DNA from: Bacteroidales bacterium
GTDB lineage: Bacteria > Bacteroidota > Bacteroidia > Bacteroidales > UBA7960
Reading direction: 5' to 3'
NCBI GenBank assembly: GCA_007125585.1
Contig: SLCY01000008.1
Span: 1 to 59,304, forward strand
Length of the DNA: 59,304 nucleotides
Both the position numbers and the translations under genes were made by a program. Of the stretch, positions 23,732 through 27,866 are shown piece by piece. Position 1 is the stretch's first letter. Every line of letters begins with the position of its first letter. The notes under the pieces are model-generated. The model was given only the letters and a program-made list of their open reading frames with translations. It was not told the origin of the DNA and made no database searches.

Positions 23732-26149
23732 TTAAAAGATCTGCGGGTATGCGGCCGGGTTGTATTCGTGCATCAGCAGGTAGATCTTCTCAAATACGTC
23801 TTCCGCATTGGGATTGGAAAAATAGTCGCCGTCGGTGCTGTATGCCGCCCGGTGTTCTTTGGCCGTCACCGTGGCTGGTTCAGCATCAAGGTAGCGATAT
23901 CCCTGCTGCTCTTCCAGCACTTTCTGCATCATAAAGGAGGTGGCGCCTCCGGGCACATCCTCATCGAAAAAGACAATCTTGTTGGTCTTCTTCAGCGATT
24001 CCACGATGGTGTGGTGGATGTCGAAAGGCAATAAGCTCTGCACGTCGATCAGCTCCACGGAAATATTGAAGTCCTTCAGTTGGCTGACGGCATATTGTGC
24101 GATGCGCACGCAGGATCCGTAGGTGACCAGGGTCACGTCGCTGCCTTCGCTGATGATCTCGGGTTTGCCCAGCGGAACGGTATATTCACCGATGTTGGAC
24201 GGCATCTTTTCCTTCAGGCGGTAAGCGTTGAGTGGCTCGATGATGAGCGCGGGCTCGTCTGACTGCAGCATGGTGTTGTAGAAGCCGGCTGCCTGGGTCA
24301 TGTTGCGCGGCACCAACACGTGCACGCCACGGATCGAGTTGATGACCATGCTCAGGGGGCTTCCAGAGTGCCAGATCCCTTCGAGGCGGTGGCCCCGGGT
24401 GCTGATGATCATCGGGGCCTTTTGTCCGCCGGCCGTGCGGTACTGAAGGGTTGCCAGGTCGTCGCTGATCACCTGCAGGCCGAAAAGCAAATAGTCAAAA
24501 TACTGTATCTCTGCGATCGGTCGCAGCCCGCGCATGGCCATTCCGATGCCCTGGCCGATGATCGTTGCCTCGCGGATGCCGGTGTCGCTGATCCGCAGTT
24601 CACCGTACTTTTCCTGCAACCCTTCCATTGTCTGGTTGACCCCGCCGATTTTACCCACGTCCTCACCAAAAACCAAAGCTTCGGGATACTTTGAAAAGAT
24701 ATGGTCGTTGTTGGCCACCAGGATCTCCCGGCCGTGGACTTCCGGCGCGTCGTCATCGTAGGTTGGAGGCACCTCCTGCACCTTAAAGGCAGATTGGCCG
24801 GATTCGCTGTACAGGTGCGATGAGTAACGGGTTTGGCTGTCTTCGTATGCTTCTGCTATCCACTGGGTGACGATCTTTTTAAGGGTTGATTCGCCGGGCG
24901 TGCAGGTGTTGCATATCAGGCGGAGGATCTTTTTTCCCGTGGAGATGATGTCTTTGCGCGTGGGCTCGCCGATGCGTGCAAGTTCCTGGAGCAGCGCGTC
25001 GATCTTGTCGACTTTCAGGCAGCGGCAGGTGGAGATATTAACCTTGCTGATAAAATCATCGCGGCGCTCCAGAATGGGCTTCTGGAAATGGTTCCAGGCC
25101 TTGCGCCGGGCTTCCTTTACGCGCTGAAGGGCTTGTTCTTCGATCTCGTCAAGCTCTTTATCACCTGCAATTTTACTTTCACTGATCCATTTTCGCATGC
25201 GGACGATGCAGTCGTTCTTTTTTTCCCATTTCAGGCGTCCGGCAGATTTGTACCTTTCGTGGGAGCCACTGGTGGAGTGTCCCTGTGGCTGGGTAACGTC
25301 GGTGATATGGAACAATACGGGGACATGCTCCCTGCGGCACTGTTCAACCCCTTTTTTATACATTTCTGTCAACCCTTCATAATCCCATGCTTTGCCGGTG
25401 AAAATCCGGATCCCGGAATGGTCCCCGCTGCCCTTCTCAAATCCCTTAAGTGCTTTGGAGATGCTGCTTTTGGTGGTTTGGTATTCGATGGGTACGCTGA
25501 TGCCGTAGCCGTCATCCCACACGGAGACAGCCAGGGGGACCTGCATTACGGCGGCTGCGTTGAGTGTTTCGAAGAAATGGCCTTCGCTGGTACTCGCATC
25601 ACCGATGGTCGCAAAAGTGACTTCATTGCCATTGCGGCTGAACTGTGAGAAATCCTTCAGCCCGTCTTCCTGCCGGTATACCTTTGAGGCCAGGGCCAGT
25701 CCCAGGGCCCTGGGCATCTGGCCGGCAGTGGGGGAGATGTCGGCCGAGGAATTTTTCTGCTTTGTAAGGTCCTTCCACTGCCCCTCCTCATCCAGGCTGC
25801 GGGTGGCAAAGTGGTTGTTCATCATGCGACCCCCGTTGTCAGGGTTGGCTTCGATGTCGGTGTCGCCGTAAAGCTGCGCAAAAAAGCCTTCCAGGGTCAG
25901 CAAGCCCGAGGCCATCATAAAGGTCTGGTCGCGATAATAGCCGCTGCGCCAGTCTCCCTCCTGGAATGCCTTGGCCATGGCCAGCTGCGGCACTTCCTTG
26001 CCGTCACCAAAAATGCCGAATTTGGCCTTGCCCGTCAACACCTCGCGGCGGCCAAGCAAGCTGGCCTGACGGCTTTCCTGGGCAATGCGGTAGTCGTCCA
26101 GGACCTCTTTTTTATATTTTTTAGAATGGGTCTGTCTTTTTGGAGGCAT
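23732..26149 (-). CDS. Fused 2-oxoacid dehydrogenase E1 alpha/beta subunit
   Basis: The protein has 805 residues from the ATG at 26149 (MPPKRQTHSKKYKKEV); an upstream start at 26200 is open but less likely. The N-terminal half is E1-alpha: GRREVLTGKAKFGIFGDGKE, QMPRALGLALASK and the thiamine-diphosphate motif GDASTSEGHFFETLN. The C-terminal half is E1-beta: ALVFGEDVGKIGGVNQTMEG, EATIIGQGIGMAMRGLRPIA and VELIDVQSLLPFD. It would decarboxylate a 2-oxoacid (pyruvate or branched-chain) and pass the acyl group to E2; E2 and E3 are not in the window. Fused subunits of this kind are common in Bacteroidota. The substrate cannot be assigned with certainty. Confidence 0.88.
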   Translation of the reverse strand: MPPKRQTHSKKYKKEVLDDYRIAQESRQASLLGRREVLTGKAKFGIFGDGKEVPQLAMAKAFQEGDWRSGYYRDQTFMMASGLLTLEGFFAQLYGDTDIEANPDNGGRMMNNHFATRSLDEEGQWKDLTKQKNSSADISPTAGQMPRALGLALASKVYRQEDGLKDFSQFSRNGNEVTFATIGDASTSEGHFFETLNAAAVMQVPLAVSVWDDGYGISVPIEYQTTKSSISKALKGFEKGSGDHSGIRIFTGKAWDYEGLTEMYKKGVEQCRREHVPVLFHITDVTQPQGHSTSGSHERYKSAGRLKWEKKNDCIVRMRKWISESKIAGDKELDEIEEQALQRVKEARRKAWNHFQKPILERRDDFISKVNISTCRCLKVDKIDALLQELARIGEPTRKDIISTGKKILRLICNTCTPGESTLKKIVTQWIAEAYEDSQTRYSSHLYSESGQSAFKVQEVPPTYDDDAPEVHGREILVANNDHIFSKYPEALVFGEDVGKIGGVNQTMEGLQEKYGELRISDTGIREATIIGQGIGMAMRGLRPIAEIQYFDYLLFGLQVISDDLATLQYRTAGGQKAPMIISTRGHRLEGIWHSGSPLSMVINSIRGVHVLVPRNMTQAAGFYNTMLQSDEPALIIEPLNAYRLKEKMPSNIGEYTVPLGKPEIISEGSDVTLVTYGSCVRIAQYAVSQLKDFNISVELIDVQSLLPFDIHHTIVESLKKTNKIVFFDEDVPGGATSFMMQKVLEEQQGYRYLDAEPATVTAKEHRAAYSTDGDYFSNPNAEDVFEKIYLLMHEYNPAAYPQIF

Positions 26150-26296
26150 AGAATAAAGGGTTAAAATCAGCCGTTCGGGTTTTTTGTTACAGATGACCAC
26201 AGCACCCGGTGCTCAGAACCTGTTGCTTGTGCCATCAATATAGTAAAAAAACCAACAGCTGAATTGTTCAATGACTTCCCTGTCAACAGGCCAGGG

Positions 26297-26745
26297 TCAG
26301 GTGCTGATCTGATTGAGGCCTGAAACGAATGCAAACACCAGCAACCCGATACCAAGTAACCATAAGAGCAATGCTGCGTGCTGCCATCCCTTTTTTGTCT
26401 GCGGCAGGTTGAAAACCAGGCTGACCCCGAAAAAGACCAGCAACAGCAAAGGGATCCCTATGACAAGGATGACACCCGCCAGGGCAACATTGATAAGCAC
26501 AGTGGCCGGAAACCAGAAATGTAGCATCTCAGGGAGGGTGGTTACCGAAATTTGAACAACAGGGTCCAAAAGTGGCCAGGATATTCCGGTGGCCAGCACA
26601 AAAAGCAGAAGGAGCAAAAGGGTGCCGGTAACAGTGAAGATGATCCCGGCCACCACGGAAATCACCCTGAAAAGCGCATCAAAAAACCGCTCAAAAGCAT
26701 TGCCCGGCCGGCCAGAGAAGTCTTCCAAACCGGTTTCAACTACTC
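26297..26745 (-). pseudogene. Membrane C-terminal part of the split PspC-family protein
   Basis: The frame encodes about 143 residues from a TTG at 26728 and has no good ATG. It begins LEDFSGRPGNAFERFFDALF and then has three hydrophobic blocks (VISVVAGIIFTVTGTLLLLL; LINVALAGVILVIGIPLLLL; ALLLWLLGIGLLVFAFVSGL). In Bacteroidota PspC-domain proteins this kind of membrane segment normally follows the PspC and coiled region in one chain. The frame is open back to the A10 tract at 26746-26755. Adding one A, or a -1 slip there, joins it to the gene at 26740-27384. It is the 3' half of one gene, either truly broken, read by slippage, or mis-sequenced. Confidence 0.65.
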
Positions 26746-27384
26746 TTTTTTTTTTGACCCCTTGCCTTTGGAGAGGTCCTCCAGGTTCTTTTTGATGTCG
26801 TTCAGGTCTTCTTTGATGGACTTTTCAATGTTGGAGAGGTTTATTTTTTCCCCTTTCATGGACAATCTGTCGCCCATGGTGCGGGCTTTTGGTATGACGA
26901 TCCACAATATAATGTACAATATCAGTCCGAACGAATAGGCGAAAAGGGTGAGGAGGAAAATAATACGTATCCAGGTGGGATCAATATTGAAGTAGGCACC
27001 CAGGCCACCGCAAACACCACCGATGTATTTGTTGTCGGGGTCGCGAAACAGCCGTTTTGGCGCATATTCTTCATCAGTTTCTGGGTCTTCAGGTTCAGTG
27101 GTCTCCGCTCCTGCATCATCCTCTCCACTGATCTGTGAGGGTTCCCCGAGCTGGGAAATGGCCTCATCCACATCTTCAATGGTCACCACTTGCCGCTGAT
27201 CCTGCTTTTTTTCCTGAAAAACCTCAGCAATACGGCTTTCAATACCTGAGATGATCTCATCACATCCCACATCGCTTTCAAAATATGCACGGATCTTCTC
27301 AAGATAAGCACTCAGCCTGGCATACGCATCTTCATCAATATGAAACACAATGCCGCTGATATTCACTGTCAATGTCTTTTTCAT
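26740..27384 (-). CDS. PspC-domain stress/envelope protein, N-terminal part
   Basis: The protein has 214 residues from the ATG at 27384 (MKKTLTVNISGIVFHIDEDA). The N-terminal ~90 residues are the regulatory domain usual in Bacteroidota PspC proteins (IEDVDEAISQLGEPSQIS). The PspC domain follows (KRLFRDPDNKYIGGVCGGLG; YFNIDPTWIRIIFLL) with a membrane helix (SFGLILYIILWIVIPKAR). The last part is a charged helix (IEKSIKEDLNDIKKNLEDLS) that stops at KGKGSKKKE directly after ten A bases. The missing membrane part lies just downstream in another frame. PspC proteins act in envelope stress. The PadR-type regulator gene lies upstream, a common pairing. Confidence 0.8.
   Translation of the reverse strand: MKKTLTVNISGIVFHIDEDAYARLSAYLEKIRAYFESDVGCDEIISGIESRIAEVFQEKKQDQRQVVTIEDVDEAISQLGEPSQISGEDDAGAETTEPEDPETDEEYAPKRLFRDPDNKYIGGVCGGLGAYFNIDPTWIRIIFLLTLFAYSFGLILYIILWIVIPKARTMGDRLSMKGEKINLSNIEKSIKEDLNDIKKNLEDLSKGKGSKKKE
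26746..26755 (-). other. A10 tract, possible slippage site
   Basis: Ten consecutive A (minus strand), read TCA AAA AAA AAA GAG TAG in the PspC frame. A -1 shift gives AAA AAA AAA AGA GTA GTT and continues without a stop into the membrane half at 26728. Confidence 0.7.
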
Positions 27385-27505: not shown

Positions 27506-27838
27506 CTATTGGTTCGTTTGTGTTACTTTTTGCACCGATTGCGTGAGCTGCACCCATGTTTTTGCCAACTCTTTGAGGAAATCCTTGCCCAGTGGGGTTA
27601 TCATGTAATATTTCCTGGGTGGCCCCCCTGTTGATTCTTCCCAGCGGTAATTCAAAAGCCCGTCATTTTTCAACCGGGTAAGCAAAGGATAAATGGTGCC
27701 CTCCACCACCAGCAGCCTGGCCTCTTTCAAGGTTTGTATCAGTTCAGAAGCATAAGCCTCCTTATCCGACAGCAGTGCCAGGATACAGTACTCAAGGATG
27801 CCTTTGCGCATCTGTGCTTTGGTGTTTTCCAGGTTCAT
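27506..27838 (-). CDS. PadR-family transcriptional regulator
   Basis: The protein has 110 residues from the ATG at 27838 (MNLENTKAQMRKGILEY). The winged helix-turn-helix is typical of PadR: LEYCILALLSDKEAYASELI, then LLVVEGTIYPLLTRLKNDGL and the wing with STGGPPRKYYMITPLGKDFL. Short PadR proteins of this size are usually repressors that control themselves and a neighbouring membrane protein; the PspC gene lies 121 bases downstream on the same strand. The start is set by a promoter box at 27867-27874. A near-perfect inverted repeat covers the -33 region, consistent with autorepression. The inducing signal is unknown. Confidence 0.9.
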   Translation of the reverse strand: MNLENTKAQMRKGILEYCILALLSDKEAYASELIQTLKEARLLVVEGTIYPLLTRLKNDGLLNYRWEESTGGPPRKYYMITPLGKDFLKELAKTWVQLTQSVQKVTQTNQ

Positions 27839-27866
27839 GCCGATGTTGTTTCCAGATCGTTTTCTG

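Follow-up and report, generated by a model that had tools for sequence, protein, structure and literature searches.

A ten-A tract as a candidate RNA-polymerase slippage site in the gene of a PspC envelope-stress sensor of Bacteroidales

The window that we analysed, a stretch of 59,304 nucleotides of Bacteroidales DNA, carries a PspC gene split into two frames at a run of ten A's (A10). From comparison with its relatives, we think it probable (roughly 0.7) that this single gene yields a short and a long envelope-stress sensor by RNA-polymerase slippage on the A10 tract. Runs of at least nine A's are known RNA-polymerase slippage sites. On this tract the polymerase would slip so that some mRNAs gain one A or lose two. 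Unslipped mRNA would then give a short HAAS-PspC protein of 214 aa, ending right after its lysines, and slipped mRNA would give HAAS-PspC followed by a LiaI-LiaF-TM membrane domain, ~362 aa in all. The long form would add a membrane-sensing part, both forms would act on the neighbouring PadR regulator, and their ratio would set the response.

The locus lies on the minus strand of the window, in a genome of 2.57 Mb (120 contigs, 96.5% complete). The PspC gene starts with the ATG at 27384, and its 0 frame (26740-27384, stop included) encodes the HAAS-PspC product, with a HAAS domain at residues 26-85 (27130-27309; Pfam PF22564, E = 4.7e-6, at 27.3 bits barely above the cut-off of 27) and a PspC domain at residues 110-167 (26884-27057; PF04024, E = 8.6e-26). 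The A10 tract, the proposed slippage site, occupies 26746-26755 (a T10 on the plus strand), and the run is kept in relatives. One codon past it the PspC frame stops, at codon 215, with the TAG at 26740-26742; the junction reads TCA AAA AAA AAA GAG TAG on the minus strand. From the tract onwards the -1 frame (26297-26755) reads KKKRVVETG and continues for 148 codons beyond the tract, to its stop at 26299-26297, and the two alternative frames of this second half contain 4 stops each. Residues 12-146 of the -1 frame translation (26318-26722) match the LiaI-LiaF-TM_PspC membrane domain (PF22571, E = 1.5e-14), and the segment therefore belongs to a PspC-type protein. A sequence-only reading of this DNA had described a PspC frame split at the A10 with an open -1 frame beyond it, a membrane segment typical of such proteins, and forms of ~214 and ~360 residues. 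The split and the domain are borne out, and so are the lengths: 214 aa can be read directly, and the ~362 aa of the predicted long form follow by arithmetic from one extra A.

Upstream of the PspC gene, on the same strand, lies the gene of a PadR-like regulator (27506-27838, start set by eye; PF03551 match on 27506-27841, E = 5.3e-19). The locus thus combines HAAS, PspC and LiaI-LiaF-TM domains with an adjoining PadR gene, as in a HAAS-PspC sensor with its PadR partner. The next gene on this strand (23732-26200) appears by eye to encode a fused two-part 2-oxo acid dehydrogenase E1, and an E1-like gene is also found 3' of the PspC gene in several genus relatives. The genome holds a second, short PspC-like match as well (G000:C83:41178-41348). 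A runs of nine or more are not rare in it (76 + 76 A9 words per 2.57 Mb, overlapping words counted), so that the tract alone means little, and its position and conservation are what count.

We searched 21 genomes of the genus, the window's own among them, both with the first half of the gene and with the second. The first half found matches at E = 0.001 or better in 18 genomes, although G001 and G003 contain only a short PspC relative. The second half matched in seven, each time at the end of a PspC gene; an extra match in G004, covering residues 73-151 on another contig, is presumably the remainder of its cut gene. In six of the seven copies with the membrane domain, the two halves are out of frame at the tract. 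Five of these (the window's own, L084, L085, L086 and L096) have A10 and a second half in the -1 frame, and L097, whose contig starts within the first half, has A9 and a second half in the +1 frame. The seventh, L083, has A11 and a single fused frame of 360 aa. Tract lengths of 9, 10 and 11 are therefore all present in one genus. Conservation of the run and the split, the check that the sequence-only reading had laid down beforehand, is thus seen in 6 of the 7 genus genomes with a second half; the contrary finding that it had named, an intact frame lacking the A run, is matched in its first part only, by L083, whose frame is intact and whose run is present as A11.

Nine further genus copies (L087-L095) end near the same place and lack the second half, with no run longer than 7 within the stretch examined, and the second half is therefore dispensable in these 9 of 21 genomes. 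One of these short-only genes, L095, ends in TCA AAA AAG GCA TAG. The similarity to the split L084 (TCA, the rest of the A10 run, GCA TAG) suggests that such genes may derive from a split ancestor. The five remaining genomes yielded no full PspC gene. In the frame given by a 10-A run, a stop is found within one codon of the tract in all seven genus copies with the membrane domain, as against 3.5 expected under synonymous codon resampling (P = 0.0045, kinship ignored). For the five A10 copies this frame is the 0 frame, which is not so for the other two: L097 has its 0-frame stop a few codons further on, and the run of L083 would have to lose one A to meet the stop.

Two pairs of species in which both copies are split show purifying selection on the out-of-frame half. 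Between the second halves of L086 and L097, dN is 0.066 and dS 0.51, and the differences number 23, 1 and 38 at the three codon positions (148 codons, chi-square p = 5e-8). Those of L084 and L085 show a dN of 0.14 and a dS of 0.90 over 98 codons, with 15, 6 and 32 differences by codon position (81 codons, chi-square p = 5e-5). The other species pairs, with dS near or beyond saturation, were set aside. Five split genus copies keep the second half open over 148-150 codons, and L085 does so over 100 codons, up to the contig end that cuts it; the other two frames of these second halves contain 2 to 11 stops each. Identity between the window and L084 is 50% in the second half and 82% in the first. 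In L084 and L085 the first halves are nearly identical (dS 0.09, against the 0.90 of the second), and a recombination point near the tract is possible. Since the split recurs in the genus and the out-of-frame half is under selection, the split is neither a sequencing error nor a fresh mutation. The junction thus has an A run of at least about nine (A10 here, A9-A11 in the genus), a change in its length joins two frames of one known protein, as in the fused homologue L083, and both split and run are kept across species with the trans-frame half selected. This conservation and the selection in the two split-split pairs support slippage as the source of two forms, one short and one long, as the sequence-only reading had suggested.

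To place the tract among wider relatives, we read 183 copies from the genus, the family, the order and a named collection, 182 of which were included in a FastTree tree. At the level of the order, 393 genomes were searched and 219 had a match, and regions were taken from 80 of these 219, mostly the best-scoring. Before counting, we dropped L001 (the window again), matches ending before query residue 180 or starting after residue 99, and repeats by their first 200 bases. These filters left out L097, which was treated apart, and let at least one repeat (L029/L132) through into a set of 50 copies. The tree set of 182 comprises 112 long copies without a junction run of at least nine, 41 long copies with one, 24 short and 5 split copies; 112 of 153 long relatives thus have no such run. 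The run-bearing long copies are found mainly in one group of 79 rows (FastTree support 92), with at least 13 state changes.

There are 46 distinct junction runs of nine or more; 40 of them join the two halves in frame and 6 do not, L097 being additional. Five of the 6 out-of-frame runs and one of the 40 in-frame runs belong to the genus, and outside it 39 of 40 runs are in frame. The exception is L127, from another family, with A9 and a second half in the -1 frame; its three genus mates with a readable junction are all in frame, one of them with A10. Another family has a copy in 11 of its 17 genomes, with A10 in 11 of 11, and ten of these are in frame (L212-L221). The remaining one, L222 (G444), has its second half out of frame. 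Its break, located by eye, comes after the A10 tract, so that we did not include it among the tract splits, and it demonstrates that such draft genomes have frame breaks of other kinds as well. The genus mates of L127 and the 17-genome family were read separately, outside the set of 50. In L011, an in-frame relative with a HAAS-PspC-LiaI-LiaF-TM-Toastrack architecture, the tract is located between PspC and LiaI-LiaF-TM.

Within the set of 50, the KKK of the linker is written as a pure run of at least nine A's in 46 copies, whereas 19.0 would be expected judging by how these genes write their other lysines (20.3 from codon usage across the fetched DNA; kinship ignored). Of 119 lysine pairs at other places in these genes, 56 are written as pure AAAAAA. 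In one alignment, the three tract columns have AAA at frequencies of 0.97-0.98 and the 16 other columns with at least 20 lysines at 0.43-0.85, a comparison that controls only partly for shared ancestry. The 40 fused relatives show a weak excess of stops within one codon of the tract (17 against 13.8 expected, P = 0.04), and 37 of them have a stop within 5 codons in some other frame, against 27.5 expected, an excess reached by none of 2000 resamplings with kinship ignored. A different A9 run is found further upstream, in the codons of a NIEKKI motif, at several loci among L039-L079 (mostly Flavobacteriaceae), and codon preference alone may explain it.

Some relatives carry a short PspC gene beside the long one in the same fetched stretch (L150, L170, L181, L182, L185, L188, L190, L195, L198, L186, L189 and L051, and also L111 and L114). 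On the tree, twelve of the 14 short genes cluster in a single, weakly resolved group, and those of L111 and L114 lie elsewhere. Tandem paralogues might have been traded for slippage. A junction run of at least nine was found in 0 of 18 copies with a second N-domain copy and in 42 of 82 others (Fisher p = 2.4e-5), counting long or split copies from whole-genome searches, with L114 (two copies) counted as one-copy and the length of the second copy unread in 5 of the 18 (G083, G188, G194, G277 and G423). This amounts to only ~0.8 independent pairs on the tree; the association is thus confounded with descent and we do not claim it.

Apart from RNA-polymerase slippage, the long form could arise from unslipped mRNA by programmed -1 ribosomal frameshifting on A AAA AAA, an explanation that we consider unlikely but that has several points in its favour. 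Bacteroidia retain +1 frameshifting in prfB, as reported in PMC8710568. An in-phase slippery heptamer A AAA AAA does exist within the tract, five of the 6 split genus copies, and L127 too, have their second half in the -1 frame, and some copies have an AAGGG-like sequence directly upstream, which could point to a ribosomal event. However, the direction of the shift is not constant, as the A9 of L097 requires +1 or -2; the heptamer needs less than runs of 9-11; and in none of the 4 split copies tested does the folding of the 110 bases from the tract onwards beat that of shuffled sequences (z-scores -0.44, 0.63, -0.96 and -1.25; pseudoknots are outside the method), so that no stimulating structure was seen. 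The purine stretch is absent from L084 and L085 and elsewhere is separated from the tract by 2 to 3 bases, whereas the stimulation of -1 frameshifting takes a longer spacing. Separate translation of the second half by re-initiation after the stop is highly improbable. Counted from the start of the tract, possible starts exist at codon 9 in the window (TTG), 16 in L086 (GTG), 20 in L084 (TTG) and 22 in L085 (ATG), but the first ones come only at codons 31 in L096 and 29 in L127, by eye within the first hydrophobic stretch. The six split copies (L082, L084, L085, L086, L096 and L127) share no start codon for the second half, and re-initiation would leave the pure A run unexplained. Given the lack of a shared start and of a strong downstream structure, together with one shift that is not -1, we favour RNA-polymerase slippage over ribosomal frameshifting. 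The sequence-only reading had admitted either kind of slippage; the polymerase fits better, and the ribosomal version fares badly with L097 and with the lack of strong structure in four copies. Moreover, a polymerase slipping both ways would tolerate lengths of 9, 10 and 11 in one genus.

The split could also reflect changes in the DNA itself. In phase variation, the tract would change its length and cells would switch between the short and the long form. That species of a single genus have A9, A10 or A11 would agree with this, as would the close relationship of L086 (A10) and L097 (A9). Nevertheless, judged from one genome per species, the states are unmixed, with 6 of 7 copies out of frame in the genus and nearly all runs in frame outside it, and the stop adjoining the run is kept, which makes phase variation quite unlikely. 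Decay, in which the frame has been lost, the second half is on its way out and slippage is at most a passive rescue, seems still harder to uphold: the nine genus genomes lacking the second half and its lower conservation speak for it, but it conflicts with the purifying selection in the two split-split pairs and with the long open frames of the six split genus copies. A sequencing or assembly error, which according to the sequence-only reading would look the same, is barely credible. Homopolymers are error-prone and every split genus copy was taken from a multi-contig draft, but the split recurs in six species with differing flanks, with A10 in five of them. Several observations do count against RNA-polymerase slippage itself, namely the fusion at A11 in one genus copy (L083), the lack of a run in most long relatives, the genus genomes with a PspC gene and no second half, the possible starts that 4 of 6 split copies have at codons 9 to 22 from the start of the tract, the merely weak excess of stops within one codon of the tract in the fused relatives, and the purine-rich sequence just upstream of the tract in several copies.

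A broader proposal, for which we see about even chances, is that a long-standing slippage site, retained in part of a single order, sets the ratio of short to long envelope-stress sensor from a single gene. Lineages would differ only in the form that the DNA spells directly, the long one in most and the short one in this genus, and the tract could vary from 9 to 11 A's, since both forms would still be supplied whichever way the slippage went. A tract of slippage-prone length has seemingly been kept across many families (15 family codes in our tally) in a membrane-stress sensor and, in one genus, it lies between two halves, each of them under selection. If RNA-polymerase slippage does act here, a single gene encodes the dose of both sensor forms, which is directly testable; annotation of the frames as they stand would show the short protein and overlook the long form.

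Judging by titles and the starts of abstracts, with subscription papers under-covered, we found nothing on slippage or frameshifting in the literature on PspC or phage shock, and no report of slippage on A10 in Bacteroidetes. GeneTack conserved frame transitions (PMC3711429) are similar to the present case in that conserved disrupted frames are the class of finding, and the main text of that paper contains neither PspC nor phage shock; PspC is not mentioned either in the accessible text of PMC5009743. The kinds of domains and the padR neighbour are those of the HAAS-PspC-LiaI-LiaF-TM-Toastrack proteins with a PadR-like regulator described in PMC11237479, a paper whose main text lacks the word "frameshift". 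The present gene differs from those proteins in its out-of-frame membrane part, and no Toastrack match is seen in L083, the fused copy of the genus. In HAAS-PadR pairs, PspC and LiaI-LiaF-TM are taken as sensors (PMC11237479) and, by analogy, the long form would carry a sensor part that the short form lacks.

The closest parallels to a short and a long form come from genes with known slippage. In tssM1 of Citrobacter rodentium and tssM3 of Yersinia pseudotuberculosis (PMC4256274), an A run near the end of a frame likewise goes with a short and a long membrane protein, and one gene spells the short form and its relative the long one: tssM1 has an A11 with 20-25% slippage, and tssM3 is the reverse case. 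They differ from the PspC gene, whose case is built from sequence, in being type VI secretion genes with experimentally shown slippage and, for tssM1, an experimentally shown need for both forms. The dnaX gene of Thermus thermophilus (PMC1088944), with an A9 run and 50% slippage, is similar to the in-frame PspC relatives outside the genus, as its full-length product is in frame and slipped mRNA meets a nearby stop; unlike them, it encodes a DNA polymerase subunit, and its shorter form makes up 50% of the product. The PspC case would add to such slippage-decoded genes as Thermus dnaX and Citrobacter tssM.
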